NCBI RefSeq assembly: GCF_025642135.1
Contig: NZ_CP106793.1
Location: 8,462,001-8,526,000 of the forward strand
Length of the DNA: 64,000 nucleotides
Direction of reading: 5' to 3'
Source: Streptomyces cynarae
GTDB taxonomy: Bacteria > Actinomycetota > Actinomycetes > Streptomycetales > Streptomycetaceae
Part shown: piece after piece, positions 16,236 through 62,273 of the stretch
How the letters are laid out: each line of letters begins with the position of its first letter
Numbering within the stretch: the first letter of the stretch is position 1
The notes under the pieces: model-generated
Database searches by the model: none
Told to the model about the DNA's origin: nothing
What the model saw: the letters and a program-made list of their open reading frames with translations, nothing else
Translations under genes and position numbers: made by a program

Positions 16236-16486
16236 GCTGCTCTCCTCACGAGTCCGGGGCATCATCTGCTGTCCGCAGACGCCGTACCCCCGCCACCCCT
16301 GCTCCGCTCGCGAGCCGTTCGTCGATCACCGGAACGGGCCGACCCGTGGTCCGAATGGCGGCCTTCGCTGTCGCGGTTGCGCCTGACCGGCTCGTAGCCG
16401 CGCGATCAACGCAACTCCAGCAACACGGCGCGCTGGGCGGCCTGCCCGCCTTGGGCGCAGTGCCAGGCCGATGTGCGAGGACGGCG

Positions 16487-17035: not shown

Positions 17036-17111
17036 AGCCCTTGAGAGTAGGAGACACCGTCCTCACCGGCGAGTGGGTTGACAGCAGGCCGAGGACATCA
17101 TGCCTGCGCCC

Positions 17112-17543: not shown

Positions 17544-17654
17544 GAAGTCCTCTCCGGGGGAGGGCGGCAGGACAGCATGGCACGCGCGAAGGGCGTCTCA
17601 CAGCAGGCTGCCGAATCCCACGTACACCGTTGCCGCACCACAGTCCGGGAACAA

Positions 17655-17691
17655 GCGGCAGGGCCCGGGCGGCGAGCCCGGGCCCTGCCGC
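17655..17691. terminator. Terminator hairpin downstream of helR
   Basis: A perfect 16-bp stem, GCGGCAGGGCCCGGGC (17655-17670), loop GGCGA, and its complement 17676-17691. It lies 46 nt beyond the helR stop codon. It differs from the hairpin at 6491-6527 at only a few positions and shares its loop. Confidence 0.85.
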
Positions 17692-17736
17692 CACGCTCAC
17701 CGACTCGGCCGGGAGCGGACGTTCGTCCGGCCGATG

Positions 17737-37685: not shown

Positions 37686-38603
37686 TCACTCGCCCCTCGC
37701 GAGGGCGCGCGCCAGAATGCGGGCCGCGGCGGCGATCAGCGTGTTGTCGACCGGGGCGTCCCGTGTGGCCTTCGACGACAGCACGGCCAGCACGATCGGC
37801 GTGTTCCTCGTCGTCCAGGCGACGCCGATGTCGTTGGCGGTCGCGTAGTCACCCGTGCCCGTCTTGTCCGCGACGATCCAGTCCTGCGGCAACCCGGCGC
37901 GGAACCGTTCGCCGCTGGTGGTGTTGCCCTTGAGCCAGGTGACGAGTTGCCGGCGATCGGTGACTGTCAGTGCCCTGCCCAGCGTCAGCCGTTCGAAGGT
38001 CCTGCCGATCGCCTCCGGTGTGGTGGTGTCACGCAGGTCGCCGGGGACGGCGGTGTTCAGGTCGGTTTCCCAGCGGTCGAGCCGGCTCACCGGATCGCCG
38101 ACCGAGCGGAAGAACCGGGTGAGGCCGGCCGGCCCGCCGATCTGGCGCAGCAGGAGGTTCCCCGCCGTGTTGTCGCTGTACTGGATGGCGGCCGTGCACA
38201 GGTCGCCCACCGTCATGCCGGTGTCGACGTGCTGTTCGGTGATCGGAGAGTGGGGCAGCAGGTCCGCCGGTGGGTAGTGGATCACCTTGTCCAACGGCGA
38301 GCAGCGATCGTGGTCGCGCAGGATCGCCGCCGCGGCGAACGCCTTGAACGTCGAGCACATCGCGAACCGCTCCTGCGCCCGGTGGGACACGACCTGCCCG
38401 GTGAGGACGTTACGGGCGTACACGCCGAGGCGGGCGGCGTAGCGCTGCTCGAGATCACGCAACTCGCCTTCGGGGTCGCGCAGTCGGGTGTGCTCCGTCG
38501 CGGATGCGGCCGATGCCGTCACGGCGGGGAGGAGTACGGCTGTGGAAACGGCGGCGCCGGCCTTGAACAGGCCGCGCCGCGGCAGAGGGGTGGCACTGGT
38601 CAT
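37686..38603 (-). CDS. bla: Class A beta-lactamase, Tat-exported
   Basis: A 305-residue class A serine beta-lactamase. A twin-arginine signal (PLPRRGLFKAG) begins the leader. Active-site motifs: Ser84-T-F-Lys87, SDN at 143-145, Glu179 in RWETDLN (omega loop) and KTG at 247-249. It hydrolyses beta-lactams outside the cell. It is divergent from a LysR regulator and a BlaB-like gene, the arrangement of the S. cacaoi blaL-blaA-blaB locus, so inducible expression is expected. Confidence 0.95.
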   Translation of the reverse strand: MTSATPLPRRGLFKAGAAVSTAVLLPAVTASAASATEHTRLRDPEGELRDLEQRYAARLGVYARNVLTGQVVSHRAQERFAMCSTFKAFAAAAILRDHDRCSPLDKVIHYPPADLLPHSPITEQHVDTGMTVGDLCTAAIQYSDNTAGNLLLRQIGGPAGLTRFFRSVGDPVSRLDRWETDLNTAVPGDLRDTTTPEAIGRTFERLTLGRALTVTDRRQLVTWLKGNTTSGERFRAGLPQDWIVADKTGTGDYATANDIGVAWTTRNTPIVLAVLSSKATRDAPVDNTLIAAAARILARALARGE

Positions 38604-38709
38604 ACGCAGAGTTCTCCCGGTGGTCCGTCGTCCGTTCCTCGAAGCTTCGGCGAGGGCCAGCGAAGCAGCGGAAGCCCACTCATGTCCAAGAGGGAACTTT
38701 CAAGACTGC

Positions 38710-38722
38710 ATCACTTATTGAT
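38710..38722. promoter_or_regulatory. Inverted repeat in the bla-blaA intergenic region
   Basis: ATCA-CTTAT-TGAT, an interrupted palindrome in an AT-richer island between the divergent beta-lactamase and LysR genes, 11 nt before the LysR GTG. It is a candidate binding site for the LysR protein. Confidence 0.45.
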
Positions 38723-38733
38723 ATGACTGCAGC

Positions 38734-39738
38734 GTGGACCTGTTGGCGCATCTCGAGGCGTACGTCGCGGTCGTCGAGGAGGCGAGCTTCTCGCGCGCGG
38801 CCGATCGGCTCGGGATCGCCCAGCCCCTTCTCAGCCGGCGTGTCAAGACGCTGGAGACGCACTTCGGCGGCCTGCTGTTCGATCGATCGCGGCGGCAGGT
38901 GGCGACCACCGAGTTCGGCGTACTCCTCCTGCCGTATGCCCAGGACGTACTGGACCGGACCCAGCGGCTGCGGCACGTCGCACGATCCGTCCGGCAGTCG
39001 GCGGTATGTGCCGTCGGAGTCCCGGGGGACTGCGGCCCGGCCGCGCTGGCACGCATCATCCGTGCCGGCGCCGAGCACGGCACCACCCTGGGCGTGCACG
39101 AACTGCCGCCACAGGAACGGGAGGCCCGCCTGGCCGACGGATCGCTGGCGTACGCGTTGCTGCGCGTCCCCCCGGAGAGCGCGGCGCTCCGGGTGCCGCT
39201 CGGCCTCGCGTCCGCGCCGGACGCGCCCGACGGGATGTACGACGGCCCGGCCGAGGCCCGGCAGCGGCCTCGTCCGCGCGTGGTCCACCTGGAAAACCTG
39301 CGGCCCCACCGCGGCCGCGACGCGACGCGCGAGCAGCGGTCCGCGGTTCCGATCCTCACGATGGCAGAGGACCAACTCCCTTACGCACAGGACCGGCTGC
39401 GTCGCGCGGCCGCGCGGGCCGGGCTTCCGGAAGGTCTGGTGCGTCCGGCCGGACCGGTGGCGACCGCGCTCGCCGAGACCCTCGCCGGGCGGGTGACGCT
39501 GCTGTGCGCCGAGCCGTTCGCACGGCGTCACGGGGCAGATTGGTCGCCGCTGGGCGACACGTCGCTGCACCGGGGATACGAACCGGGTGCCGGACCACCT
39601 CAGCGTGGCCCGGCGTCCGTGCCGGACTGGCTGGTGGCGCTGCTGGCAGCCGCGGTCGGTGCCACGACCGGGCCGCGCACGGCACCGTCCGTGGCCGCGG
39701 GTGAGGATGCTTCGCTGCGACTGGCGGCGCGCGGATGA
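38734..39738 (+). CDS. blaA: LysR-family regulator (BlaA-like)
   Basis: A 334-residue LysR protein: the HTH is LEAYVAVVEEASFSRAADRL followed by AQPLLSRRVKTLETHFGGLL. The C-terminal effector domain follows. It is divergent from a class A beta-lactamase and overlaps the next gene (ATGA), as BlaA is in S. cacaoi, where BlaA activates the lactamase gene. GTG 38734 is the start; no strong ribosome-binding site. Confidence 0.88.
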   Translation: MDLLAHLEAYVAVVEEASFSRAADRLGIAQPLLSRRVKTLETHFGGLLFDRSRRQVATTEFGVLLLPYAQDVLDRTQRLRHVARSVRQSAVCAVGVPGDCGPAALARIIRAGAEHGTTLGVHELPPQEREARLADGSLAYALLRVPPESAALRVPLGLASAPDAPDGMYDGPAEARQRPRPRVVHLENLRPHRGRDATREQRSAVPILTMAEDQLPYAQDRLRRAAARAGLPEGLVRPAGPVATALAETLAGRVTLLCAEPFARRHGADWSPLGDTSLHRGYEPGAGPPQRGPASVPDWLVALLAAAVGATTGPRTAPSVAAGEDASLRLAARG

Positions 39739-40670
39739 ACGCCCGCCCGCAGTACCGCCCGGCCCACGTCGCCGACGACGGTGACCTTCTCGACGTCGCC
39801 GAGGCGATCGCCGCGGACTGGGCGGCTCTTGGTGTCCGCGGGTCCTTCCTCGCCCGCCGGATCGACACCGGGGAACAGCTCGGCTTCGACGTCGATGAAC
39901 CGGTGCCCCTCGCCTCGGTGGTCAAGGTCCCGCTCGCCCTCGTCGCGCTGGACCGGATCGCGACCGGGGAACTCGATCCGGCACAGCCGGTCACCGTCGA
40001 CCCGGCCACGAGCAGCGTCGGATCCACGGGTCTCGCGGCGTTCCGGTACCCCGCCACCGTGGCCGTCGGCGACCTGCTCCTGATGATGCTCTCGGTGAGC
40101 GACAACGCGAGCGCTGACGCACTGTTCGACCTGGTTCCGGTCGAGGACGTCGACGCCCGCCTGCGCGCCTGGGAGTGTGCGGGCATCCGGGTGCGGCATC
40201 GGCTGAACCGGATGTACGAGTGCGCCGCGGGTGCCGCCGGCGACGACTTCTCACTGGCTTTGGAACTGGCCGTCCGTGACGACCGCACGGGGCGGCACAC
40301 CATCGAGACACTGGACCCGGCCTACGCCAACGTCGGCACCGCCACAGCGCTCGTCGACTTGCTGCAGCGCGTGTGGCGGGACCGGATCGCCCATCCCGAC
40401 GCGACCGCCGAACTGCGCCGACTGATGGGACTGCAGGTCTTCACGCAGCGGCTGGCGAGCGAACTGCGCGCGGACACACTCCGGATGAGCGGCAAGACAG
40501 GCACATTCCTTCACCTGCGGCACGAGATCGGCGTGGTGGAGGCCGAATCCGGAGATCGGGTTGCGATGGCCGCGCTCACCCGATCCGACCGCCGAGCCGG
40601 CCTGGCGCCGGACATCGACCTCGCGATCGGAACCGGCGCACGGCGCGCCTTCGAGGCGCTGCGCCGCTGA
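39735..40670 (+). CDS. blaB: BlaB-like penicillin-recognising serine hydrolase
   Basis: A 311-residue member of the class A beta-lactamase superfamily. SVVK (Ser61-Lys64), SDN (122-124) and KTG (254-256) are all present. No signal peptide is seen, unlike the secreted enzyme at 37686. In S. cacaoi the blaB product is a membrane-associated regulatory protein needed for lactamase induction. Translational coupling to the LysR gene supports the same role, perhaps as an intracellular sensor of beta-lactams or muropeptides. Weak hydrolase activity is an alternative. Confidence 0.85.
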   Translation: MNARPQYRPAHVADDGDLLDVAEAIAADWAALGVRGSFLARRIDTGEQLGFDVDEPVPLASVVKVPLALVALDRIATGELDPAQPVTVDPATSSVGSTGLAAFRYPATVAVGDLLLMMLSVSDNASADALFDLVPVEDVDARLRAWECAGIRVRHRLNRMYECAAGAAGDDFSLALELAVRDDRTGRHTIETLDPAYANVGTATALVDLLQRVWRDRIAHPDATAELRRLMGLQVFTQRLASELRADTLRMSGKTGTFLHLRHEIGVVEAESGDRVAMAALTRSDRRAGLAPDIDLAIGTGARRAFEALRR

Positions 40671-44149: not shown

Positions 44150-44484
44150 GTGTCCCCCCAGGACGAGTCAGAAGCGACGACGGTAGCGCCTGGGGCGCGA
44201 CTCGCGGGAGAGGTGTGGAGGAGTGGTGATCATTCTGTAACGGCGGTGGCGGCGCGGCGTCCCCAGCCCGCGCACACGCCGGCCGTGACCCATGCGCCCG
44301 CCGTAACGGAGGCGCCGGAGCGTGGCTCATGCGCCCGCAGTGGTCAAGGCGCCGGCAGTGACCAAACAACAAAAAGGACCTGGGAAGCTGCCTCCGGACG
44401 AGACAGCAGGTCGGCGGTCACCCCGGCCGCGACTTCTCGGGATCCTGAACCAGCGACCCGCTGGGAGTGCGGGGTGGCGGCCGT
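44150..44484. other. Divergent promoter region
   Basis: About 335 bases upstream of the sigma-factor promoter. Two imperfect copies of a CATGCGCCCGC... block occur near 44290 and 44328. No gene is supported. Confidence 0.4.
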
Positions 44485-44513
44485 GCAATCCGGTGGCGAC
44501 TGCGGACCGTATC
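44485..44513 (+). promoter_or_regulatory. Putative ECF-sigma autopromoter
   Basis: GCAATCC (44485-44491), a 16-nt spacer and CGTATC (44508-44513), ending 7 nt before GTG 44521, which has no Shine-Dalgarno. The same motif with the same spacer precedes the synthetase gene (45949-45977). Confidence 0.6.
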
Positions 44514-44520
44514 TACTGAT

Positions 44521-45090
44521 GTGCAGAGGTTTCGGTTCTCCGTGGGCCGTCTCCCGGACGAGGCTCTGCTGTCCGGGCTGGCCACCGGTGATCCGGAGCT
44601 CGCCATCGGCTTCGTACGGAGGTTCCAGCACCGGGTCTTCGGTGTCGCGATAGCCGTCACCGGGGATCCGCAGCTCGCTGAGGACATCGCCCAGCAGACG
44701 TTCGAGCGGGCGTGGCGTCATGCGCAGATCTATGACTCGCGCCGGGGGTCGGTGATGACCTGGCTGACGACCATCGCCCACAACCTTGCCATCGACGCCG
44801 TCCGGTCCCGGCGGCCGGAGCCGGTGGCGCCCGAGGACCTGGACGCCATGCTGGACGTCGTCAGCGAGACGCCCGAGCATCGGGCACTCGCCGACGAGGC
44901 GTCTTCCCGGCTGCGGGCGGCCGTGGCGGAACTCCCGCGCGAACAGGGCCGTGCCCTGGTGATGGCGGGTATCTACGGAATGACGGCCCAGCAGATCGCC
45001 GACTGGGAGAAGATCCCGCTGGGCACCGCCAAGACGCGCATCAGGGCGGCGATGGGAAAGCTGCGCACCACCCTCGCGTCTCCGAAGTGA
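44521..45090 (+). CDS. ECF sigma factor
   Basis: A protein of about 189 residues with sigma region 2 (AIGFVRRFQHRVFGVAIAVT, DPQLAEDIAQQTFERAWRHA) and region 4 (LPREQGRALVMAGIYGMTAQ, then IPLGTAKTRIRAAMGKLRT). It directs RNA polymerase to specific promoters. It is followed 8 nt later by its anti-sigma factor. GTG 44521 lies 7 nt after a -10-like CGTATC, suggesting a leaderless mRNA; the frame is open further upstream but would start before the promoter. Confidence 0.9.
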   Translation: MQRFRFSVGRLPDEALLSGLATGDPELAIGFVRRFQHRVFGVAIAVTGDPQLAEDIAQQTFERAWRHAQIYDSRRGSVMTWLTTIAHNLAIDAVRSRRPEPVAPEDLDAMLDVVSETPEHRALADEASSRLRAAVAELPREQGRALVMAGIYGMTAQQIADWEKIPLGTAKTRIRAAMGKLRTTLASPK

Positions 45091-45097
45091 GGCGACC

Positions 45098-45850
45098 ATG
45101 TGCCGTGACGTGACCTGCGAGCAGCTGCGGGAGGAGGGCCCCGAGCTGGCGCTCGGCGTGCTGCCCGCGCGTGAGCGGGCCGGGGCGGTCGCCCATCTGG
45201 ACCAGTGCGCGGACTGCCGGGAGTACGTCGAGGAGCTGACCCTCGTCGGGGACCGGCTGATCGGGCTGCTGCCGTGCGGTGAGCCGCCGGTCGGGTTCGA
45301 GACCCGGGTGGCGGAGGCGCTGACGCAGGGCGCGGCGGCGCGCGAGGCGCGTCCGCAGGCCCGTGCGTCCGGCTTCACGCGCCGACGCCTGCGGGGACGG
45401 GTACGGCTGAGGGCCGCCTCTGCCATGGCCGCGCTGGCCCTGGCCTTCGGGTTCGGGGGCTGGGCGGTCGGCACGGCGATCGAGGGCGTCACGACCGGGC
45501 CTTCGCACCCCGCCGAGGCGGGAGCGCGCATGCTCTGGGCGGGGCTGACGTCCCCGCGGGTCAGCCAGTCGACGGGCGAGGTCTTCGCCCATCCGGGTGC
45601 GCCGGGCTGGGTCTACATGACCGTCGACCTCGCCGACGCCGGCATTCCGTACAGCGGTGCGGTCTCCTTGCAGCTGGAGCGCGATGATGGCACCTCGGTC
45701 CGGGTCGGCAGCTTCACCCTGCACGACGGCTACGGCTACTGGGGCGGCCCGGCCCCCGTCGACCCCTCGGCGCTGACCGGCGCCCGGTTGACGTCGTCCG
45801 ACGGCAGGGTGCTCGCCACGGCCCACTTCGACGCCTCGCACCAGGCGTAG
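45098..45850 (+). CDS. Zinc-finger anti-sigma factor (membrane)
   Basis: A 250-residue protein. The N-terminal ZAS/zf-HC2 domain has HLDQCADC. One membrane helix follows (AASAMAALALAFGFGGWAVGTA), then an extracytoplasmic RskA-type domain with WVYMTVDLADAG and GSFTLHDGYGYWGG. It should hold the upstream ECF sigma factor at the membrane and release it on an external signal. The zinc finger may also give redox sensitivity. It is in an operon with the sigma gene. Confidence 0.9.
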   Translation: MCRDVTCEQLREEGPELALGVLPARERAGAVAHLDQCADCREYVEELTLVGDRLIGLLPCGEPPVGFETRVAEALTQGAAAREARPQARASGFTRRRLRGRVRLRAASAMAALALAFGFGGWAVGTAIEGVTTGPSHPAEAGARMLWAGLTSPRVSQSTGEVFAHPGAPGWVYMTVDLADAGIPYSGAVSLQLERDDGTSVRVGSFTLHDGYGYWGGPAPVDPSALTGARLTSSDGRVLATAHFDASHQA

Positions 45851-45983: not shown

Positions 45984-48626
45984 ATGGGGTCAGAATCGAA
46001 GCTCGTGTCAGGCGCACGCGAAAGCGCAGCCGGCAGCAACCGACCAGGGGGTCAGGCCGCCGTCGACGAAGCGCCGGCCGATGCGGGGCCTTCCCCGCCC
46101 CTCCAGGCGATTCGACGAGGAGAGCCGGCCGACCCGCTCGTCGCCGAGGACATGGAGCAGGCTCTCGCACAGGTGCTGGCCGAGGTCGTGGGCATCGAAC
46201 AGGTGCCGGCCGACAGTCATTTCTTCGACGACCTGGGTGCCGATTCCCTGGTGATGGCACATTTCTGCGCGCGCCTGCGCAAGAGGGCGGACCTGCCCTC
46301 GGTCTCGATGAAGGAGATCTATCAACACCCCACGATCCGAAGTCTGGCGGCAGCGGTGCCCGACACCGCGCCCACGCGCACAGCCCCCGCGTTCACCCAG
46401 GCTCCGGGTCGGGAGCCGCAGACGGCCACGGGCGCCCCGCCCGGTGACACAGCCGGCACGACGGAATACGTACTGTGCGGCATCCTTCAGGCCCTCGCCT
46501 TCCTCGGCTACACCTACCTCGCGGCGATGGCCACCGCGTGGGGGTACGAGTGGATCTCCGCCAGGTCGGACCTGCTCGCTGTGTATGTGCGGTCGGTGCT
46601 GTTCGGCGGTGCCGTCTTCGTGGGGTTGTGCGCCCTTCCGATCCTGGTGAAGTGGACGCTCATCGGCCGGTGGAAGCCGGGGCAGATCCGGATATGGTCC
46701 CTGGGATACGTTCGCTTCTGGGTCGTGCGGACACTGATCCGTACGAACCCGCTGACGTTGTTCGTCGGCTCGCCCCTGTACGTGTTCTATCTACGGGCAC
46801 TGGGCGCCGACATCGGCCGAGGTGCCGTGATCCTCTCCCGCAACGTGCCTGTCTGCACCGACCTGCTCACCATCGGTGAGGGTTCCGTCGTCCGCAAGGA
46901 CTCGTTCTTCCTCTGCTACCGCGCCCGAGCGGGCGTGATCGAGCCGGGCCCGGTCACGATCGGGAAGTCGGTGCTGGTCAGCGAAGCCACGGTGATGGAC
47001 ATCGGGACGGCGCTGGGCGACGGAGCCCAGCTCGGCCATGCCTCCTCGCTGCACAGCGGGCAGGTCGTGCCGCAGGGCGAGCGCTGGCACGGGTCCCCCG
47101 CACAGCGGACCGAGGCCGACTTCCAGGTCGTGGGCGAGACGCCGCACGCCACGCTGCGCAGAGCCCTGCACAGCGCACGGCAACTCGCGACAGCGTTCCT
47201 TGTGTATGTGCCGCTCGCGGTCGGTGGCACCATCATGTTGCTCGTCGCGGTTCCGGAACTCCACACGGTCATCGAGCCGGGGCCGGCGGTCCTGACCAAC
47301 GGCACCTTCTACCGTGATGTTGCGGTGGCCGCCGCCGTGCTCGTCCTCGGCGGCCTCATCCTCGGCCTGTTGCTCGTCAGCGCTCTTCCCCGTGTGCTGC
47401 GTCGCGCCGTCGTACCAGGCCGGGACTACCCGCTGTACGGATGGCGCCACTCCATCCACCGAGCCGTTTCGCGACTCACCAACAGGCGAAACCTCACCCG
47501 TCTGTTCGGTGACAGTTCCTGCATCGTGCACTACCTGCGCGCCATCGGCTACGACTTCTCCCACATCGAGCAGACGGGGTCGAATTTCGGCACGGAAGTC
47601 AGGCACGAGACGCCCTTCATGAGTTCCGTCGGCAGCGGAACGATGGTCGCCGACGGCCTGTCGATCGTGAATGCGGACTTCTCCAGCACCGCTTTCCAGG
47701 TGTCCCGGGCGTCGATCGGGGCGCACAGCTTCCTGGGAAACCGGATCGCCTATCCGGCGCGGGCCCGCACCGGCGACAACTGCCTTCTGGCGACGAAGGT
47801 CATGGTGCCTGTCGACGGACAAATCCGGGAAGGCGTGGGGCTGCTGGGCTCACCCAGTTTCGAGATCCCCAGGACGGTCCTGCGCGACAGCCGGTTCGAC
47901 CGGTTCAGGAGCGGAGAAGAGCTGCGCCGCGGCCTTGCGGCGAAGAACAAGCACAACGCGGCCACCATGGGTTGGTTCCTTCTCTCGCGGTGGATCTACC
48001 TCACGTGTGCCGCCCTGCTCGCTGCCGGGGCGGCCGACACCTATGCCCGGCTGGGCGTGCCTGCCGTCGCACTCGCCGATGTACTCGTTGTCGTCTTCAC
48101 CGCGGTGTACTTCGTGCTGGTCGAGCGTCTCGTCATCGCGGCGCGCCGTCCAGGTGCCCTGTACTGCTCGATCTACGATCCCCGGTTCTGGTGGCGTGAG
48201 CGGTACTGGAAGGTGCCGTCCGAGACGTATCTGCGCTTGTTCAACGGCACTCCGTTCAAGAACGTGATCTGGCGGCTCCTGGGCGTCCGGATCGGGCACC
48301 GGGTGTTCGACGACGGCTGCTACGTGACCGAGCGGCCGATGGTGACCATCGGCGACGCGTGCATCCTGAACGCGGGCAGCATCATCCAGTGCCACTCGCA
48401 GGAGGACGGCACGTTCAAGTCCGAGAGCACCACGCTGGGTCGCGGCTGCACGATCGGTGTCGGTGCCCTGGTCCACTACGGCGTGACGCTGGGCGACGGG
48501 GCGGTGCTCGCCGCGGACTCCTTCCTCATGAAGGGAGAGGTGGTCCCGCAGAACTCCCGGTGGGGCGGGAATCCGGCCCGCGAGCTGGAGCAGGGCGACG
48601 ACGACGTGGGAAGGAGCAGCCGATGA
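45984..48626 (+). CDS. Carrier protein fused to Pls-type six-TM terminal module
   Basis: An 880-residue protein. A peptidyl-carrier domain (about residues 54-122; phosphopantetheine Ser88 in LGADSLVMAHF) is followed by three hydrophobic pairs (six helices in all) alternating with three left-handed beta-helix/condensation-like modules (hexapeptide runs such as IGEGSVVRKDS, IGAHSFLGNRIAYPARARTG and CTIGVGALVHYGVTLGDGA). This is the C-terminal architecture of epsilon-poly-lysine synthetase (Pls) and related poly-amino-acid synthetases, where tandem C domains elongate the chain at the membrane. Here the adenylation domain is missing and lies on the next gene. ATG 45984 is chosen from the promoter; GTG 45966 overlaps it. 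Confidence 0.85.
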   Translation: MGSESKLVSGARESAAGSNRPGGQAAVDEAPADAGPSPPLQAIRRGEPADPLVAEDMEQALAQVLAEVVGIEQVPADSHFFDDLGADSLVMAHFCARLRKRADLPSVSMKEIYQHPTIRSLAAAVPDTAPTRTAPAFTQAPGREPQTATGAPPGDTAGTTEYVLCGILQALAFLGYTYLAAMATAWGYEWISARSDLLAVYVRSVLFGGAVFVGLCALPILVKWTLIGRWKPGQIRIWSLGYVRFWVVRTLIRTNPLTLFVGSPLYVFYLRALGADIGRGAVILSRNVPVCTDLLTIGEGSVVRKDSFFLCYRARAGVIEPGPVTIGKSVLVSEATVMDIGTALGDGAQLGHASSLHSGQVVPQGERWHGSPAQRTEADFQVVGETPHATLRRALHSARQLATAFLVYVPLAVGGTIMLLVAVPELHTVIEPGPAVLTNGTFYRDVAVAAAVLVLGGLILGLLLVSALPRVLRRAVVPGRDYPLYGWRHSIHRAVSRLTNRRNLTRLFGDSSCIVHYLRAIGYDFSHIEQTGSNFGTEVRHETPFMSSVGSGTMVADGLSIVNADFSSTAFQVSRASIGAHSFLGNRIAYPARARTGDNCLLATKVMVPVDGQIREGVGLLGSPSFEIPRTVLRDSRFDRFRSGEELRRGLAAKNKHNAATMGWFLLSRWIYLTCAALLAAGAADTYARLGVPAVALADVLVVVFTAVYFVLVERLVIAARRPGALYCSIYDPRFWWRERYWKVPSETYLRLFNGTPFKNVIWRLLGVRIGHRVFDDGCYVTERPMVTIGDACILNAGSIIQCHSQEDGTFKSESTTLGRGCTIGVGALVHYGVTLGDGAVLAADSFLMKGEVVPQNSRWGGNPARELEQGDDDVGRSSR

Positions 48627-51211
48627 CCCTCGTACCCAACGCCCCTGTGCTCGAGCCCGGGGACGAGGAGTTCTGGCGGTCCGTCCTGACCCGTGGCGGG
48701 TTCACCACTGTTCCGCGCTGGACGCTCACCCCGGTGCCGGGCGTGGCACAGCACGAGGTGCAGATCCCCCCGGACGTCATGGCCGCAGCGCGCCGGTTGG
48801 CCGACGACATGGCCGTGCCGCTCAACTCGGTCCTGCTGGCGGCGCACGCCAAGGTACTGGCCGCCCTGTCCGGCGAGCGCGACGTCACGACCGGCTACAT
48901 CGCCGAGCCGGACACCGGGCCGCTGCCGTGCAGGCTGACAACCCATCATCCCCACTGGAGGGCACTGGTACGGGAAGCCCGACGTGCCGAAACGGGGCTG
49001 CTCGCGCACAAGCAGGCCGCGGTCGAGGACCTCGAGCGCGAGTTGCAGTTGCCCGGTCGCCTGAGCGAAGCCTCGTTCGCCGCGTTCCCGGCCGACCGCG
49101 AGGCGGCTGCCGCAACGGCTGTTGCGTTCCGCGAGCTCCCCGCCGGCACCGTATGGCAGGTCATGTCCACGTGGAGCGACAGCGGACACACCCTGCGGCT
49201 GCGGTACCGACGCGATGCAGTGGACGCCCCGTGCGCCGCGCGCATCGTGGGCTACCACCTGACCGCCCTGGCCCTGATGGCCGCCGATCCCGCCGCCCGG
49301 CCCGGGCAGCAGAGCCTGCTGTCCGCCGAGGAGGTTCGCCTCCAGCTCGAGGGACTCGCCGGGCCGCGGCGCAGGCTTCCGCAGAGCTGTGTCCACGCCC
49401 TGATCGAGCAGCGTGTACGGGACCACCCCAACCGCGTATCCATCGTGCACGGTGACCGGCAGTGGACGTACGCCGAACTCAACCAGCGTGCCAACTACGT
49501 GGCTCGAGCCCTTCTCGGGCTGGGGGCGGGACGCGAGGATGTCGTCGCGGTGGTGACGGAACGCAACGTGGACTGGGCGGCGGCCGTCCTCGGAGTCCTC
49601 AAGGCCGGGTGCGTCTACCTGCCCGTCGAGCCGCGCTTCCCCGCCGACCGCATCGCGGCCATGCTCTCGCGTGCCGGGTGCCGGCTGGTGCTGACCGAGC
49701 CCGGCAGCACCACCAACCTCTCGCGAGCCGTGGACGCACTGCCCGGGGCGCGGACCCTGCTGGTCGAGGCGGCCTACGGCGCGACGGACGCGGCCGGTGA
49801 CCTGGACCTGGACGTGCGCCTGGACCAGCTCGCCTACATCTTCTTCACCTCCGGCTCCACCGGCGAGCCCAAAGGCGCGATGTGCGAACACGCCGGGATG
49901 CTCAACCACATCCACGCCAAGATCGACGACCTGCGGATCGGCGAGGGCCAGGTCGTCGCCCAGACGGCGCCTCAGTGCTTCGACATCTCCCTGTGGCAGT
50001 TGTTGGCGGCGCTGGTGGCCGGCGGTCGGACCCTGCTGGTTCCCCAAGAGGTGATCGAGGACGTCCCTCGATACCTCGACACGATCGCCGAGGGCCGCGT
50101 CAGCGTCCTGCAGGCCGTGCCCTCGTACCTCGACGCCGTGGTGTCCTCGCTGGAGAGGTGCCCGCGCGAGCTGCCGGACCTGCGGTGCGTGTCGGTCACC
50201 GGCGAGGCCCTGAAGAAGGACCTCGTGGAGCGCTGGTTCCGCGCCCAGCCGGGGATCAGGCTCGTCAACGCCTACGGGCTCACCGAGACGTCGGACGACA
50301 CCAACCATGAAGTCATGGACCAGGCGCCGGACACCGACCGGATCCCGCTCGGCCGTCCGGTGAACAACGTGCGGGTCCGCGTCGTCGACGACAACCTGTC
50401 ACCGGTGCCGCTCGGCGCACCCGGCGAGATCGTCTTCGCCGGAGTCTGCGTCGGCCGCGGCTACGTCAACGATCCGGAGCGCACGCGCCAGTCGTTCACG
50501 ACCGATCCCTACCGCACCGGCGACCGGCTCTACCGAAGCGGCGACTACGGCCGCTGGCTGCCCGACGGCAAGCTGGATTTCCTCGGCCGCCGGGACAGCC
50601 AGGTGAAGGTCCGCGGGTTCCGCGTCGAGATCGAGGAGGTGGAGAACGCCCTGCTGAAGGTGCCCGGCGTGCGCGCCGGCGCGGTCACGGTCACCCAGAA
50701 CGACCGGGGCGGGCGCCTGGTGGCCTTCTGCTGCGGTGAGCATCCGCCTGCTGACGACACCGTGCGACAGCACCTGAGCAGGCACCTGCCCGCCTACATG
50801 GTCCCCTCGTCCTTCCACTGGCGCGATCACCTCCCGCTGACCGGCAACGGCAAGGTAGACCGCAAGGCCCTGGCATCGCTCGCGGGGGAACTCGACCACA
50901 CCGGACCTCACGACACCTGCGTCGCAGCGGCGTCGGACACCGGCGAACCACCGCGCACACCGACCGAGGAGCGCCTGGCCGCCGCCTGGGCCACGGTGCT
51001 CGGCATCCCGCAACACCGGATCGGCCGGCAGGCCCACTTCTTCGACGACGGCGGCGGCACCTCGCTCACAGCGCTCCAACTCGCCATTCGGCTCGACCGC
51101 ACGGTGTCCCTGAAAGACCTCACCCACCATCCGGTGCTCGCCGACCTGGCCCGCCTGCTCGACGTCCGAGCCGCGTCGTCCCGAGCCGCGTCGTCCCCGA
51201 CCGTTTCGTGA
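48623..51211 (+). CDS. NRPS adenylation protein with half C domain and carrier
   Basis: An 862-residue protein. Residues 1-260 resemble the C-terminal half of a condensation domain (VPLNSVLLAAHAKVLAALSG) without the HHxxxDG half. An adenylation domain follows (A3 FFTSGSTGEPKG about 407; A4 FDIS 453-456; A5 NAYGLTE 549; A10 NGKVDRK about 742), then a carrier (Ser814 in GGTSLTALQL). The specificity residues by eye read D-I-W-S-S-T-A-D-D-K; two acidic residues at the pocket end suit an amino acid with a basic side chain, such as diaminopropionate. It overlaps the upstream gene by ATGA. There is no thioesterase. Confidence 0.88.
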   Translation: MTLVPNAPVLEPGDEEFWRSVLTRGGFTTVPRWTLTPVPGVAQHEVQIPPDVMAAARRLADDMAVPLNSVLLAAHAKVLAALSGERDVTTGYIAEPDTGPLPCRLTTHHPHWRALVREARRAETGLLAHKQAAVEDLERELQLPGRLSEASFAAFPADREAAAATAVAFRELPAGTVWQVMSTWSDSGHTLRLRYRRDAVDAPCAARIVGYHLTALALMAADPAARPGQQSLLSAEEVRLQLEGLAGPRRRLPQSCVHALIEQRVRDHPNRVSIVHGDRQWTYAELNQRANYVARALLGLGAGREDVVAVVTERNVDWAAAVLGVLKAGCVYLPVEPRFPADRIAAMLSRAGCRLVLTEPGSTTNLSRAVDALPGARTLLVEAAYGATDAAGDLDLDVRLDQLAYIFFTSGSTGEPKGAMCEHAGMLNHIHAKIDDLRIGEGQVVAQTAPQCFDISLWQLLAALVAGGRTLLVPQEVIEDVPRYLDTIAEGRVSVLQAVPSYLDAVVSSLERCPRELPDLRCVSVTGEALKKDLVERWFRAQPGIRLVNAYGLTETSDDTNHEVMDQAPDTDRIPLGRPVNNVRVRVVDDNLSPVPLGAPGEIVFAGVCVGRGYVNDPERTRQSFTTDPYRTGDRLYRSGDYGRWLPDGKLDFLGRRDSQVKVRGFRVEIEEVENALLKVPGVRAGAVTVTQNDRGGRLVAFCCGEHPPADDTVRQHLSRHLPAYMVPSSFHWRDHLPLTGNGKVDRKALASLAGELDHTGPHDTCVAAASDTGEPPRTPTEERLAAAWATVLGIPQHRIGRQAHFFDDGGGTSLTALQLAIRLDRTVSLKDLTHHPVLADLARLLDVRAASSRAASSPTVS

Positions 51212-51231
51212 ACCGCTGGAGGCGGTGAGAG

Positions 51232-52236
51232 ATGTCGTCCTCATTCACCACACGACCGGTCGATCCGGACCTTCGGCTCGGTCCCGTACCGATCGTGACC
51301 ACCGGCCCGACCGACGATCCCGACCGCTGGGCGGCCGAACACCGGGGCCTGCTGCGCAGCCTGGTCACCGAGCACGGTGCCGTCATGGTGCGCGGTCTGG
51401 GGCTGCACGACGTCGCCGGCACCGCGTCCGTCTTCACCCGGCTGGCCACCGGGCTGATGGTCGAGACGGAGGCGTTCGCCGCACGGCGCAGCTACGGCAC
51501 CGGCGTGTACTCGTCGTCGACGTGGCCGCCCAACCGGACGATGTGCATGCACCACGAGCTCAGCTACGCGCTGCGGTTCCCGGGCCTGATGCAGTTCGCC
51601 TGCCTGGTCTCGCCCAGCCGTGGCGGTGCGACCGCCCTCGCCGACTCGCCGACCGTACTCGCCGCCCTGCCGGAGGCACTCGTCGAGCGGTTCGAGCACG
51701 AGGGCTGGTTGCTCGCCCGGAACTACAACGACGACATCGGAGCCTCCTGGACCGAGGCGTTCGGAACCGACGATCGCACAGCCGTCGAAGACTACTGCCG
51801 CGCCGCCGCCATCGAGTTCGTCTGGCAACCCGACGGCGGCCTGAGCACCAGGCAACGCCGCAGCGCCGTGATCCGTCACCCGCTCACGGGGCGGCGCTGC
51901 TGGTTCAACCAGATGGCGTTTCTCAGCGAATGGACGCTGGATCCGGAGATACGCGAATACCTGGTGGATCTCTACGGGTCGGACGGGTTGCCGTTCAACA
52001 CCCGTTACGGCAACGGCGACTCCATCTCACGGGACACCGTCGACCTCATCAACCAGGTCTACCAGGCCCACACCGTACGCGAACCGTGGCAGGACGGCGA
52101 CCTGCTGCTGGTCGACAACCTGCGCACCGCGCACAGCAGAGAAGCCTACGAAGGACCGCGCGACGTGATGGTCGCCTTGGCCGACCCGGTGCACCTGCAC
52201 GACTGCTCGCCGACCGTGGAGGTGATGACACGATGA
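51232..52236 (+). CDS. Fe(II)/2-oxoglutarate oxygenase (TauD/SyrP-like)
   Basis: A 334-residue TauD/TfdA-family enzyme. The iron triad is His107-x-Glu109 (MHHELSY) and His301 (NLRTAHSREAY); Arg310 binds 2-oxoglutarate. The HxE, not HxA/G, form predicts hydroxylation or desaturation rather than halogenation. SyrP-like members hydroxylate carrier-bound amino acids in NRPS systems. It starts 20 nt after the adenylation gene and overlaps sbnB by ATGA, so it is part of the operon and probably modifies the diaminopropionate unit. Confidence 0.9.
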   Translation: MSSSFTTRPVDPDLRLGPVPIVTTGPTDDPDRWAAEHRGLLRSLVTEHGAVMVRGLGLHDVAGTASVFTRLATGLMVETEAFAARRSYGTGVYSSSTWPPNRTMCMHHELSYALRFPGLMQFACLVSPSRGGATALADSPTVLAALPEALVERFEHEGWLLARNYNDDIGASWTEAFGTDDRTAVEDYCRAAAIEFVWQPDGGLSTRQRRSAVIRHPLTGRRCWFNQMAFLSEWTLDPEIREYLVDLYGSDGLPFNTRYGNGDSISRDTVDLINQVYQAHTVREPWQDGDLLLVDNLRTAHSREAYEGPRDVMVALADPVHLHDCSPTVEVMTR

Positions 52237-53303
52237 CCACCACCTGCTCGCCCGCCGCCCGGCTCACCCCGTCCGGGACGCCACGGGTGCCTCCCTTCGC
52301 CGTCATCTCCGGCGCGCAGGTGCAGCGCGCCCTGCAGGGGCGCGAAGAGCACATCGTGGAGCTGGTGCAGGTCGCGTACCGGCTGCACGCCGCAGGAGAC
52401 TCGGTAAACCCGCCGTCCTCCTTCCTGCGTTTCCACGACCGTCCCTCCTCCCGGATCATCGCGCTGCCCGCGTCGCTCGGTGGTGAGACACGGGTGGACG
52501 GCCTCAAGTGGATCTCCAGCTTTCCCCAGAACGTCGAGGGCGGCATCCCGCGGGCATCGGCGGTGCTCATCCTCAACGACCATGACACCGGCTACCCGTT
52601 CGCGTGCCTGGAAAGCTCGATCATCAGCGCCTCCCGGACAGCGGCGTCGGCCGCGCTCGCAGCCGACTGGCTCAGCCGGAAACGGCCGCGCCCGACCCAC
52701 CTCGGCTTCGTCGGAGCGGGTGTGATCGCCCGTTACATTCACACGTTTCTGGCCGGCACGGGCTGGTCGTTCGAGAACGTCGGAGTGTTCGACCTGTCGC
52801 CGGACAACGCGAGGGCCTTCCGCTGCTGCCTGGAGCAGTCGGGGGCGGCGGGGCCCGTCACGGTGCACGACAGTGCCGAGCAGGTGATCCGCCTCAGCGA
52901 CCTGGTGGTCTTCGCGACGGTTGCCGCGCGTCCCCACGTCCACGACCCGGCGTGGTTCGCGCACGATCCGGTGGTGCTGCACATATCGCTGCGCGACCTG
53001 GCCCCCGAGGTACTGCTCGCCTCGGCCAACATCGTCGACGACGTGGAGCATTGCCTGCGAGCCGACACCTCACCTCACCTGACCGAACAGCTCACCGGGA
53101 ACCGGCAGTTCCTCGACGGGACGTTGGAGGACGTCATGGCCGGGCGCGTCACACCGCCGCCGGACCGCCCTGTGATCTTTTCACCCTTCGGCCTGGGAGT
53201 GCTCGATCTGGCCGTCGGCAAGTACGTCTACGACCAGGTCGCCGAGTCCGGAGGACTGAACGTCATCGACGACTTCTTCCACGAGCTGAACCGCTACGGA
53301 TGA
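52233..53303 (+). CDS. sbnB: SbnB-like N-(2-amino-2-carboxyethyl)-glutamate dehydrogenase
   Basis: A 356-residue ornithine-cyclodeaminase-fold enzyme. The Rossmann motif is LGFVGAGVIARYIHTFLAG. KWISSFPQN and the ESSIISASRTAA segment match SbnB. In staphyloferrin B synthesis SbnB oxidatively splits N-(1-amino-1-carboxy-2-ethyl)-glutamate into L-2,3-diaminopropionate, 2-oxoglutarate and NADH. The next gene is SbnA-like, completing the Dap pathway. Released 2-oxoglutarate could feed the adjacent oxygenase. ATG 52233 overlaps the upstream stop. Confidence 0.9.
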   Translation: MTTTCSPAARLTPSGTPRVPPFAVISGAQVQRALQGREEHIVELVQVAYRLHAAGDSVNPPSSFLRFHDRPSSRIIALPASLGGETRVDGLKWISSFPQNVEGGIPRASAVLILNDHDTGYPFACLESSIISASRTAASAALAADWLSRKRPRPTHLGFVGAGVIARYIHTFLAGTGWSFENVGVFDLSPDNARAFRCCLEQSGAAGPVTVHDSAEQVIRLSDLVVFATVAARPHVHDPAWFAHDPVVLHISLRDLAPEVLLASANIVDDVEHCLRADTSPHLTEQLTGNRQFLDGTLEDVMAGRVTPPPDRPVIFSPFGLGVLDLAVGKYVYDQVAESGGLNVIDDFFHELNRYG

Positions 53304-53354
53304 GCGGCCCGCGGCACGGCGCACCGAGCCGCCCTTCGATCCACGGAGGCCATC

Positions 53355-54398
53355 GTGCCAGTCATATCCGATCCGTACAGCTTCAACGAGGAGGACCTCT
53401 ACGTCGACCTGCGGTCGATCTGCGGGCAGCCGCTGTTCCTGAAGTGCGAGGGGTTCAACTTCGCCGGCTCCATCAAGCTGAAGCCCGCCAGGGAGATGGT
53501 GGAGGCCGCGGAACGGGCAGGGGTCATCACACCCGACTCGGTTCTGCTCGAGTCCTCGTCGGGCAACATGGGCGTGGCCATGAGCGTGATCGCGGCCAGC
53601 AAGGGTTACCGGTTCCTGTGTGTGACGGACTCGCGCTGCAACCTGTCGACCCGGTTGTTGATGGAGGCACTCGGCGCCCATGTTCACGTCGTCACCGAGC
53701 CCAGCCCGCACGGCGGTTTCCTCGGTGCTCGCCTCGACTACATCCGCAGGCAGTGCGCTCGCAGCGGGAGATACGTGTGGCTGAGCCAGTACACCAACGC
53801 GAACAACTGGAAGGCGCACTATCACCGGACGGCCCCGGCGATCGCGCGCTCCTTCCCCGGTCTTGACGTGCTGTTCGTCGGAGCGGGCACCACCGGAACG
53901 CTCATGGGCTGTGCCCGCTGGTTCCGGCACTGGCACCGCCCCGTGCGGATCGTCGCGGTCGACACCGTCGGTTCGGTGACCTTCGGCGGAGCGCCGGGCC
54001 GCCGGATGCTTCCCGGCCTGGGGATGAGCATGCAACCGCCGCTGCTGGACGCCTCGTACGTGGACGAGGCGATAGAAGTAGAAGAGGCCGACACCATCCG
54101 GGCCTGTCACCGCCTGGCCAGGCACGGATTCCTCTTCGGGGGCTCCACGGGCACCGTGGTCAGCGGGGCGGTCGACTGGCTGGCCCGAGGTGACCGGCCG
54201 GCCCTCACCGCGGTGGCCATCGCTCCGGACCTGGGGGAGCGCTATCTCGACACCGTCTACCAGGCCAACTGGATCCGGGATCTCTACGGCGACGCCGTTT
54301 TGGGCGACGACGTCGTGACCAGTGATGCGCAGCTGCGTACCGATGTCCCTGAAACCAGGCCGGCATCCTCGGCCCGGTCGTCGGGCAAACGGTCGTAG
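53355..54398 (+). CDS. sbnA: SbnA-like PLP-dependent ACEGA synthase
   Basis: A 347-residue cysteine-synthase-family enzyme. The PLP lysine is Lys41 in FAGSIKLKPA, the substrate loop is ESSSGNMGVAMS, and the phosphate-binding loop is GAGTTGTLMG. SbnA condenses O-phospho-L-serine with glutamate to give the SbnB substrate. It starts at GTG 53355 with GGAGG 6 nt upstream, 51 nt after sbnB. It is the last gene of the rightward synthetase operon. Confidence 0.9.
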   Translation: MPVISDPYSFNEEDLYVDLRSICGQPLFLKCEGFNFAGSIKLKPAREMVEAAERAGVITPDSVLLESSSGNMGVAMSVIAASKGYRFLCVTDSRCNLSTRLLMEALGAHVHVVTEPSPHGGFLGARLDYIRRQCARSGRYVWLSQYTNANNWKAHYHRTAPAIARSFPGLDVLFVGAGTTGTLMGCARWFRHWHRPVRIVAVDTVGSVTFGGAPGRRMLPGLGMSMQPPLLDASYVDEAIEVEEADTIRACHRLARHGFLFGGSTGTVVSGAVDWLARGDRPALTAVAIAPDLGERYLDTVYQANWIRDLYGDAVLGDDVVTSDAQLRTDVPETRPASSARSSGKRS

Positions 54399-54478
54399 GC
54401 GCCGTACGCGGAGCTCTCGGCACCTGACAGAACCGACGTGCCCCCGAGGCGGTCAGGGGGGCGGTGGCGTCGCGGCCG

Positions 54479-55207
54479 TCACCGGTCTCCCATGCCCGAC
54501 CGGAGCGGCCCGACCCGCGCCATGGTGACGGCCGTCAGCACAAGGCCGGCGCCCACCACGAAACACCCGTCGAGACCGGTCGGCGCCCTCTCGTCGGCGG
54601 CCGCCCGCTCGATCAGACGCCCGTGAAAGCTCCCGTCGGAAGCGTGCACGGAGACGACGTGCACGGTGACGACCACATCGGTGAAGTCGAGCCACGTACG
54701 GGTCAGCGCGAACCACGCCTTGTAGATGCTCTCCTCGGCACTGAAAAGGACCCGGTCCCAGCAGACGGGCCCCGAGGGCAGGGCTTCGAGAGCCGCCCGT
54801 TCCGCAGCGGCGCTGATCGCTTCCAGGACACCGGCCGGCAGCGCCTCGTGAGGCTCGGCATCGATGCCCACCGCCGCCAGGTCCCGCCCCAGCGCCACTG
54901 CCGCCGCGCAGTAGCCAGGGCAGTGCGTGATGCTGCCGACGATTCCGCGGGGCCACACCGGTTCCCGATGCGCCCCGATCAAGACCGGGGCTGTCGGCAA
55001 CCCCAGAGCTCGCATGGCGCGCCGGGCGCAGGTCCTGCCGGCGGCGAACTCCCACATCCTGGCTTGCGGGACCCGACCCAGAGCCGCGACCTCCTCGGGC
55101 AGGATCCGCACGTCGTCGTCGCGCCCCATGATCTGCGCGGCACGGGCGACGGCCGGCAGCAGCCCGCCCATCGACACCACCGGCTCGGGTACGGAAGGGA
55201 CGGACAT
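54479..55207 (-). CDS. 4'-Phosphopantetheinyl transferase (EntD/Sfp type)
   Basis: A 242-residue PPTase: [30 protein letters not shown], the magnesium-site VGIDAEP and [15 protein letters not shown]. It attaches phosphopantetheine from CoA to carrier serines and should activate the two carriers of the convergent synthetase operon. ATG 55207 fits the family length; an in-frame start at 55273 adds an Arg-rich lead. A dedicated PPTase next to a two-carrier locus is good functional linkage. Confidence 0.92.
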
Positions 55208-60244: not shown

Positions 60245-60278
60245 GTCTGACCGCCCGCGAAGACGCGGGCGGTCAGAC
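60245..60278. terminator. Bidirectional terminator
   Basis: A perfect 15-bp stem, GTCTGACCGCCCGCG (60245-60259), loop AAGA, complement 60264-60278, between convergent glpD and the MFS gene. The MFS stop codon lies inside it. Confidence 0.85.
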
Positions 60279-61463
60279 GCGGCTGGGCTCGGTGGCGTCC
60301 CCGCTGGGGTCTCCCAGCAGGCGCTTGTCCACCTCCGGTTCGGGCAGCGTGCGAAACAGCAGCCAGCTCAGGGCGGGCATCAGGATCAGGGGGGCCAGCG
60401 CCGTGCGCAGCGAGGTCGCGTCGGCGATTCTGCCGATGACGGGGCTGGTGAGGCCGCCGACACCGACCATGAGACCGAGCGTGATCCCGCCGGCCGTACC
60501 GACACGCGTAGGCAGATAGTCCTGGGCGAGCGTGACCTGAAGCGAGAACGGCACGTACAGGCCGATGGAGGTCAGGGCCACGAACAGATAGACGGCCGGG
60601 CCGGGGACGAACACGACGCCGGCGACTGCGGCCACCGTGGTCAGGTAGGACGTGCTCACCACCCTGACCCGGTCCCAGCGATGGGCCAGTTCGCTCCCGA
60701 GGATCGTGCCGACCGCGCCGCCGAGGTAGAGCACGAACAGCGCGGCCGTCCCCGCCGCCGTACCCCATCCCGTCTGCTGCCGGACCTGGAAGGCGACGAA
60801 GGTGCTCATGGCGACGAAGGCGATCGAACGGCAGACCACCGCGAGCGAAAGCCGCACGAACGAGGGCCAATGGTCCCGCCCCGCCGCGGCCGCCGTGCGG
60901 GAACCTGTGCGCGGCGCCTTCTCAACGGCGCGCAGCACCGGCAGCGTCAGCACGCTGCCGACCAGGGCGGGCACGATCAGCAAGGGTGACCAGCGCAGCC
61001 CGCCGGTGGCGATCACGACGGCGACCAGGAGAGGGGCGAAGGCGAAGCCGATGTTGCCGCCGAGGGAGAACCAGCCCATGGAACTGTGGCTCCCCTTGGC
61101 GGCCAGCCGAGCGACACGGGCCGACTCCGGGTGGTAGGCGGCGACCCCGATGCCGGACAACGCCATGAACATCGACGTGAGCGTGTACGAGCCGCCGATG
61201 CCGCTCAGGGCGACACCGATTCCGGCGAGGACCGTGCTGACCGGAAGCAAACAGGGTATGGAGCGCCGGTCGGTGAGCGCACCGAAGACGGGCTGGGCGA
61301 CGGAGGACAGCAGGCTCGTGGCGAGCACGATGCCCGAAGCCGCGGCATAGGTGTAGGAGCGCTCGGCGACGAAGAACGGGATGAGGGACGCGACGGCGCC
61401 CTGGTACAGGTCGACACAGGCATGTCCGACCGACAGCAGGACGAGCGACTTGTTCCTTGGCAT
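60273..61463 (-). CDS. MFS transporter, fosmidomycin-resistance type
   Basis: A 396-residue, 12-helix MFS protein of the Fsr group: VLLSVGHACVDLYQGAVASLIPFF and VAQPVFGALTDRRS. E. coli Fsr exports fosmidomycin. Natural substrate unknown. ATG 61463 is chosen because the preceding frame is not hydrophobic. It is divergent from an AraC regulator 54 nt away, which probably controls it. Confidence 0.92.
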   Translation of the reverse strand: MPRNKSLVLLSVGHACVDLYQGAVASLIPFFVAERSYTYAAASGIVLATSLLSSVAQPVFGALTDRRSIPCLLPVSTVLAGIGVALSGIGGSYTLTSMFMALSGIGVAAYHPESARVARLAAKGSHSSMGWFSLGGNIGFAFAPLLVAVVIATGGLRWSPLLIVPALVGSVLTLPVLRAVEKAPRTGSRTAAAAGRDHWPSFVRLSLAVVCRSIAFVAMSTFVAFQVRQQTGWGTAAGTAALFVLYLGGAVGTILGSELAHRWDRVRVVSTSYLTTVAAVAGVVFVPGPAVYLFVALTSIGLYVPFSLQVTLAQDYLPTRVGTAGGITLGLMVGVGGLTSPVIGRIADATSLRTALAPLILMPALSWLLFRTLPEPEVDKRLLGDPSGDATEPSRV

Positions 61464-61517
61464 GGCGTCATGGTCGTCCGTCGACCAGCTGTCGCACTTC
61501 CTATAATCTGCCAAGGG

Positions 61518-62273
61518 ATGAGGAAATTCCGCCATGTGCCGGTGGCGCCGACGGACACGCGGTGGCTGGCTCCAGGCGCCGGTATCGACGCCCACCGGCA
61601 CGACGACCATCAGATCGTGTACGCGGGCCGGGGCGTGGTCGCCGTCACCACCGACGCGGGCTCGTGGGTCGCCCCGGCCACCCGCGCCATCTGGGTCCCG
61701 GCCGGCACCGTCCACTCCCACCAGGCCCACGGAGATCTCGAACTGCACCTGGTCGGTCTGCCCGCGCACACCAACCCGCTCGGTCTGGATGAGCCGACTG
61801 TGCTGAGCGTCGGGCCGCTGCTGCGGGAGTTGATCCTCGCCTGCACTCGGGACGCGGGCGACGACAGTCCCGAACGCGGGCGGCTGATCGCCGTCCTGCT
61901 GGACCAGTTGCGGGCCTCGCCCCAGCAGCCGCTGCATGTGCCTACGCCCACGGCGCCGCAACTCAAGGCGCTGTGCGGGATCCTGCTCGCCGATCCTGCC
62001 GACGACCGCACCCTGGCGGCCCTGGGCCGGCAGGTCGGTGCGAGCGACCGGACGTTGTCCCGCCTGTTCAAGGCCGACCTGGGTATGACGTTCCCCCAGT
62101 GGCGTACGCAGGTGCGGCTCTCCCACGCCTTGGTCCTGCTCGCCGAGAACACGCCGGTCACGGTCGTGGCGCACCGGTGCGGCTGGTCATCGGCGAGCGC
62201 GTTCATCGACGTGTTCCGCCGCGCCTTCGGCTACACCCCGGGACGCGCCTCGGGCGGGCGGCCGGCTGAGTGA
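61518..62273 (+). CDS. AraC-family regulator with cupin sensor
   Basis: A 251-residue protein. An N-terminal cupin (IDAHRHDDHQIVYAGRGVVAV, AIWVPAGTVHSHQAHGD) is followed by the AraC double HTH (LAALGRQVGASDRTLSRLFKADLG; VTVVAHRCGWSSASAFIDVFRR). This is the arrangement of the NimR/RipA-type subgroup that usually controls a divergent MFS exporter. AAGGG lies close to ATG 61518. Confidence 0.93.
   Translation: MRKFRHVPVAPTDTRWLAPGAGIDAHRHDDHQIVYAGRGVVAVTTDAGSWVAPATRAIWVPAGTVHSHQAHGDLELHLVGLPAHTNPLGLDEPTVLSVGPLLRELILACTRDAGDDSPERGRLIAVLLDQLRASPQQPLHVPTPTAPQLKALCGILLADPADDRTLAALGRQVGASDRTLSRLFKADLGMTFPQWRTQVRLSHALVLLAENTPVTVVAHRCGWSSASAFIDVFRRAFGYTPGRASGGRPAE

Follow-up and report, generated by a model that had tools for sequence, protein, structure and literature searches.

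The 64,000-nucleotide stretch analysed here (the window, positions 8462001-8526000 of the 9.36-Mb genome of Streptomyces cynarae, whose nearest named relatives are Streptomyces) contains a five-gene operon for the synthesis and use of L-2,3-diaminopropionate (Dap). We propose, with about an even chance of being right as a whole, that this operon specifies a two-protein nonribosomal synthetase of the Pls type, which oxidises carrier-bound Dap and joins the units by a Pls domain working in trans. Reading frames, start sites and domain searches bore out the genes named in the initial annotation. The five genes lie on the same strand between 45984 and 54398, with successive intergenic gaps of -4, 20, -4 and 51 bp:

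45984..48626 (start at 45966, 45984 or 46152), plus strand: carrier (PF00550 at 59-125) fused to a Pls/PosA terminal domain with three hydrophobic pairs by hydropathy (TIGR02353, 710 bits; cut-off 423)
48623..51211, plus strand: condensation-domain remnant consisting of the C-lobe only (PF00668, sub-threshold), adenylation domain (PF00501, PF13193) and carrier (PF00550), also by alignment to solved synthetases
51232..52236, plus strand: TauD-type Fe(II)/2-oxoglutarate oxygenase (143 bits; cut-off 27)
52233..53303, plus strand: SbnB, second enzyme of Dap synthesis (TIGR03944, 428 bits; cut-off 326.9)
53355..54398, plus strand: SbnA, first enzyme of Dap synthesis (TIGR03945, 369.5 bits; cut-off 349.95)

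The gene set, the intact motifs, the conserved substrate code and the association of the oxygenase with adenylation and carrier domains can all be read from the sequences, and from them we infer the following scheme. SbnA and SbnB would make L-Dap, probably from O-phosphoserine and glutamate, and the adenylation domain of 48623-51211 would activate it and load two carriers, that of its own protein and, in trans, the one attached to the membrane Pls domain. Oxidation of Dap by the TauD-type oxygenase would follow, presumably while Dap is held on the carrier, and the Pls domain of 45984-48626 would form amide bonds and free the chain, as in polylysine synthetase, both this role and any chain length being presumptive. 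Simple beta-hydroxy-Dap with a free beta-amine should be an unstable carbinolamine, which makes an N-acylated hemiaminal or dehydro-Dap the likelier stable product.

That the operon supplies L-Dap is very likely: the SbnB-SbnA pair of the initial annotation is encoded by adjacent genes whose products each exceed a curated NCBIfam cut-off. The solved structures closest to the window's SbnA are SbnA 5d87 (206 bits) and then CmnB; SbnB has five solved relatives, including CmnK, the best being 4m54, which is listed as a putative ornithine cyclodeaminase and which we take to be SbnB of Staphylococcus aureus. The SbnA/SbnB route yields L-Dap from O-phosphoserine and glutamate with release of 2-oxoglutarate, and O-phosphoserine fits as the precursor, since a gene for phosphoglycerate dehydrogenase (TIGR01327, above cut-off) adjoins the adenylation and oxygenase genes in two related loci, L193 and L195.

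Loading of Dap by the adenylation protein is, judged by its substrate code, also distinctly likely. The adenylation domain scores 397 bits against a cut-off of 317 and carries the code DIWQSTADDK, and all 84 aligned adenylation proteins fit DIWQ(S/V)T(A/T)DDK (72 with DIWQSTADDK, 11 with DIWQSTTDDK and one with DIWQVTADDK) and retain the carrier serine, as does the window's protein; these 84 proteins, like the 85 loci referred to below, count one contig twice (L040 is L064). In a survey, the codes for Dap and for 2,4-diaminobutyrate (Dab) are reported to be close, with DVWQMIGDDK reported for beta-OH modification among the Dab codes (PMC12283262); the window's code matches it at 6 of 10 positions.

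The adenylation domain was annotated as lying on a second protein with its own carrier and half a condensation domain, and this holds, the half domain resting on a sub-threshold match to PF00668 (its positions 194-277; 16.5 bits, cut-off 30.6) and on alignment of the N-terminus from residue 202 of McyA 8jbr and residue 219 of ObiF1 6n8e. No HHxxxDG motif was found in the half domain, which should be non-catalytic because these histidines are absent; a docking role for it is a guess. The half domain is a feature common to the family. Loss of the N-terminal half in the window alone was considered and rejected: an HH...D match precedes the adenylation domain in just 2 of the 84 proteins (L092 and L096), both being chance stretches within the C-lobe.

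Oxidation of Dap on the carrier is probable, and the strongest evidence for it is the company that the oxygenase keeps. The window's enzyme has the HxE...H triad, the iron site is invariant in 49 of 49 sequences, and a match of at least 100 bits (tblastn) occurs in 77 of 80 loci, these being the best 80 of 526 relatives in a scan of named genomes, so that all counts over them lean towards the window. Among loci hand-picked for unusual matches from a 295-genome scan (L176-L195, not a random sample), two encode A-T-TauD fusions, joining adenylation, carrier and oxygenase domains, with no Pls gene in the fetched stretch (L187 and L189); five have the adenylation protein, oxygenase, SbnB and SbnA within other clusters, again with no Pls gene in the fetched stretch (L184, L185, L186, L193 and L194); and one (L191) encodes a single 2301-aa protein, T-Pls-C*-A-T-TauD, next to SbnB and SbnA. 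In the same set, the stretch of L188 has no TauD match and that of L195 no match to SbnA or SbnB. Of 7,999 candidate relatives of the L187 fusion that were scored, 120 are listed; 105 of these combine TauD, carrier and adenylation domains, and 87 carry DIWQSTADDK exactly. The oxygenase that the initial annotation had recognised is present, but the idea that it was added to a Pls synthetase gave way: by these arrangements, it is tied to the Dap adenylation-carrier unit.

Its reaction would not be settled by the fold alone, as structure comparison (VIA-align) of a model of the oxygenase listed general TauD folds together with oxygenases of isonitrile pathways. In a class-wide sample of 296 genomes, 27 contain a match to the oxygenase at E <= 1e-60, of which 18 belong to the window's genus; in some, identity is as low as 37-46%. 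In L193, a run of ketosynthase- and reductase-like genes (by eye, of the type II polyketide line) precedes the Dap-oxygenase cassette, and the phosphoglycerate dehydrogenase gene comes after it. Lipopeptides of the enamidonin/autucedine type were considered as a product of the Pls-free cassettes, as they contain Dap and Streptomyces olivaceus has an A-T-TauD protein; this candidate was set aside, no link to a gene cluster being seen in the accessible text (PMC11204786).

Condensation by the Pls domain is somewhat favoured. The annotated fusion of a carrier to a terminal region of three modules and six transmembrane segments stands: TIGR02353 scores well above its curated cut-off, and hydropathy places hydrophobic segments in three pairs (163-181/204-222, 405-423/446-464 and 665-683/695-713), the fifth segment being weaker (1.54). 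Pfam hexapeptide repeats occur only near 816-847, and the carrier serine is present and kept in 39 of 39 aligned proteins. The candidate starts are GTG 45966, ATG 45984 and ATG 46152, the last agreeing with the 824-aa form listed as P0001. "Pls/PosA family" is NCBI's existing name for most of the 120 relatives of this protein listed from 8,000 scored candidates.

Matches to TIGR02353 occur in 45 of 81 genomes of the genus, 62 in total, and divide by open-frame length into 33 fused proteins (at least 1172 aa), 28 split ones (812-1118 aa) and one multi-carrier protein (L037). In a tree of 111 terminal domains (midpoint root), 26 fused ones cluster together (support 1.0), and outside this group fall 82 split domains, L037 and two other fused proteins (P0117 and P0118). 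Across the 26 fused and 82 split domains, 71 columns are at least 97% identical, among them N796, Q802, H804, D808 and E739. Given the separation on the tree and these columns common to both kinds, the split type looks like an old sister line in which the shared core has been preserved and which itself includes a few fused proteins.

The five-gene layout is an established family. All five genes occur in 68 of the 80 loci, 58 in the order of the window and 10 in which SbnA has a different place, alone or along with SbnB; the 12 incomplete loci comprise eight on short or cut contigs (L068, L082, L088, L097, L106, L116, L126 and L134) and four deviations that look real (L067, L111, L115 and L121). 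Among the 80 are loci from Kibdelosporangium, Amycolatopsis, Lentzea, Kutzneria, Geodermatophilus and Rhodococcus, as well as from a few metagenome bins that bear the labels of other phyla. Within the genus, matches to the adenylation protein at E <= 1e-100 occur in 176 of 295 genomes, the weakest of which may be other synthetases, and reach 1e-180 in about 121. All five families were likewise found in 19 of a set of 20 fetched stretches, which comprised two further Pls loci of this genome and the best matches, the exception being L037. The split layout to which the initial annotation had drawn attention is thus not a one-off, the cassette recurring across these loci and in a second full copy in the same genome.

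That second complete cassette (L036, G000:C1:1302000-1321900, 9027-17711) has a thioesterase on its adenylation protein. The third Pls-type locus of the genome (L037, G000:C1:6838000-6857900, 5223-11539) encodes a Pls protein in which a carrier is repeated four times in tandem, nearly unchanged (unit of 261 bp, 4.0 copies, 98% match), and its neighbours include an oxygenase 66% identical to that of the window and a stand-alone AMP ligase of unclear code. Near the cassette in L086, L089, L090, L091, L097, L127 and L133, all non-Streptomyces, lies a pyridoxal phosphate enzyme that by eye is threonine-synthase-like.

The alternative that survives best, a serious one even though we hold it to be the less probable, is a small product, whether a single small molecule or a short peptide: the adenylation protein would pass oxidised Dap on to one acceptor or to a few, the Pls domain would act as a single-step acyltransferase, and release would follow by hydrolysis or cyclisation. 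A tail of at least 230 residues follows the carrier motif in 49 of the 84 adenylation proteins, 48 of them with G-x-S-x-G (all except L085); 34 have no tail, and one continues into an oxygenase. The 1231-aa L066 protein, which joins adenylation and oxygenase, may be the result of gene-calling read-on. The 49 are counted as thioesterase-like by tail length; Pfam calls a thioesterase in the two long forms tested, L036 and L043, the former belonging to the 84. Such tails would fit a discrete product better than a Pls-style polymer. The occurrence of the Dap-oxygenase cassette in the five clusters with no Pls gene in the fetched stretch also speaks for the small product. No thioesterase tail is present in the window's protein or in L056 and L057, the two relatives nearest to it, the two states being intermixed on the adenylation tree; the tail-less form of the window, together with the 71 near-invariant columns that its Pls domain has in common with fused synthetases, speaks against a small product. 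The tails are the main reason why a polymer should not be assumed, and we consider a true polymer possible, with the balance of probability somewhat against it.

A plain poly- or oligo-Dap, as in Streptomyces albulus PD-1, or a comb-shaped Dap-Dap polymer, the oxygenase acting seldom or on a different substrate, has precedents: a Pls-type synthetase is known to make poly-Dap (PMC4668381), and two papers cite a branched Dap-Dap polymer (PMC10522769, PMC9606270). It is improbable in view of the near-constant presence of the oxygenase, its invariant iron site and its fusion to the adenylation-carrier protein in several relatives, and the PD-1 synthetase is described as one fused protein with its Dap genes elsewhere (PMC4668381). 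Activation of 2,4- or 2,3-diaminobutyrate instead of Dap would suit the resemblance of the window's code to Dab codes and the relatives with DIWQATCDDK (27 of the 120 listed L187-fusion relatives, including L189, which has GHMP kinase, PALP and argininosuccinate-lyase-like enzymes), but is very improbable with SbnA and SbnB in the operon and accompanying the other three genes in 68 of 80 loci.

Beside the tails, several further observations weigh against a synthetase that oxidises and joins carrier-bound Dap. Locus L115 keeps the other four genes with no oxygenase seen. Identity between the window's Pls domain and the 26 fused ones reaches only 25.6-27.4%, and the domain may have another function. 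The adenylation code of characterised cationic homopolymer synthetases is described as carrying Asp at position 1 and Glu at 3, and that of the poly-Dap synthetase Phe at 2 (PMC10522769), whereas positions 1-3 in the window are D, I and W, so that the predicted substrate would be that of the poly-Dap synthetase but the code, with W instead of Glu at position 3, appears to be of a different kind. The two Dap enzymes of PD-1 are reported to have yielded Dap from serine and ornithine, not from O-phosphoserine and glutamate (PMC4668381), which by analogy would count against the supply route proposed here. Nor do code and supply genes covary cleanly: L188 has DIWQSTADDK, yet has another enzyme set (GHMP kinase, PALP enzyme and argininosuccinate-lyase-like protein) and no SbnB, and a clean link between the two was dropped on this account. 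Finally, neither a product nor biochemistry was found for any member of the family, common as the cassette is in the genus, in the literature searched, which left subscription papers mostly outside.

As a separate observation, the adenylation relative has as neighbours in both L188 and L189 a GHMP kinase, PALP and argininosuccinate-lyase-like enzymes and an ATP-grasp ligase, possibly another route to 2,3-diamino acids. Streptomyces scabies has an SbnB homologue, encoded close to sbnA and a synthetase gene, that is apparently among the proteins more abundant with potato tubers (PMC11479980).

Three further genes adjoin the operon:

44467..45090, plus strand: sigma factor of the extracytoplasmic function (ECF) type, candidate regulator of the operon (TIGR02937, 75.6 bits; cut-off 42.9)
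45098..45850, plus strand: probable anti-sigma factor, directly 3' of the sigma gene (NF052375, 56.5 bits, cut-off 100; zf-HC2, 18.7 bits, cut-off 22.2; both sub-threshold)
54479 to 55207 or 55273, minus strand: Sfp-type phosphopantetheinyl transferase (PPTase), convergent to the operon (PF17837, PF01648)

The sigma and probable anti-sigma genes lie directly upstream of the five genes, and a sigma-factor cluster is within the fetched stretch of 12 of the 85 loci. Upstream regions of relatives align only partly, and a search for an ECF promoter upstream of the operon gave no result. The PPTase gene is convergent, as annotated, and its membership in the system is uncertain. Among the 85 loci, the window and L056 are the only two that show it labelled, which led us to reject it as part of a wider cassette, and the contig of the next relative, L057, stops short of its position; six other loci have a different PPTase-like gene near the cassette (assigned by eye). 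It was also rejected as the core PPTase of the genus, since in 61 genomes of the genus nothing outside the window matches it at above 53% identity. As the initial annotation had stated, the operon contains neither a thioesterase nor a dedicated exporter. The only transporter-like gene in the part searched (37.7-63.4 kb; 1-36 kb was not covered) encodes a major facilitator superfamily protein at 60273-61937, which is outside the operon, 5.9 kb past SbnA and beyond genes of other families. Upstream, at 37686-40670, a LysR-type regulator gene is flanked by two beta-lactamase-family genes, all three being probably unrelated.

If the two-protein scheme is right, the Pls polymerising domain has been separated from its adenylation domain, and its own reaction could be tested with chosen carrier-bound substrates. 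The forms with and without a thioesterase, the full fusion L191 and the Pls-free cassette make up a natural comparison series. More broadly, and tentatively, since we think it unlikely to hold in full, a large actinobacterial family may polymerise carrier-bound oxidised Dap through an in-trans membrane Pls domain into oxidised isopeptides, of a class absent from the literature searched, with N-acyl hemiaminal or dehydro-Dap repeats, with a thioesterase branch making relatives of defined length.

Among known systems, the dapdiamide pathway (DdaA-DdaD) combines a Dap synthesis pair, an adenylation-carrier protein and an Fe/2-oxoglutarate oxygenase that acts on a carrier-bound species; it needs fumaramoyl enzymes and is not known to include a Pls domain. 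The window's operon encodes a comparable Dap pair, adenylation-carrier protein and oxygenase, but no fumaramoyl enzymes were seen in the operon, and the Pls domain is extra. Poly-Dap synthesis in S. albulus, the precedent named in the initial annotation, proved apt in part. The PD-1 synthetase resembles the window in its Pls-type terminal domain, the lack of a thioesterase, the Dap monomer and the SbnA/SbnB-like enzymes, and differs in that A-T-Pls is a single fused protein and the Dap genes are located elsewhere, with no mention of an oxygenase in the accessible text (PMC4668381); in the window, the synthetase is divided over two proteins, the Dap genes belong to the operon, an oxygenase is encoded, and the adenylation code is not that of the poly-Dap synthetase. 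Epsilon-polylysine Pls and delta-polyornithine PosA have the same terminal domain (TIGR02353) with three membrane-helix pairs, seen by hydropathy in the window, but their adenylation domain is fused, with Asp at position 1 of its code and Glu at position 3, in contrast to the D-I-W code on a second protein here (PMC10522769). The TauD enzymes that hydroxylate Asp in siderophore synthesis (e.g., of cupriachelin) work with an adenylation-carrier unit and are sometimes fused to it; they act on carrier-bound Asp and are described as always next to Asp-selective domains, whereas the partner here would, by code alone, be of the Dab/Dap kind in 84 of 84 proteins (PMC8949500). Because TauD is described there only beside Asp-selective domains, a Dap partner would be new relative to that review, and a Dap-acting oxygenase would join the known Asp-directed ones.

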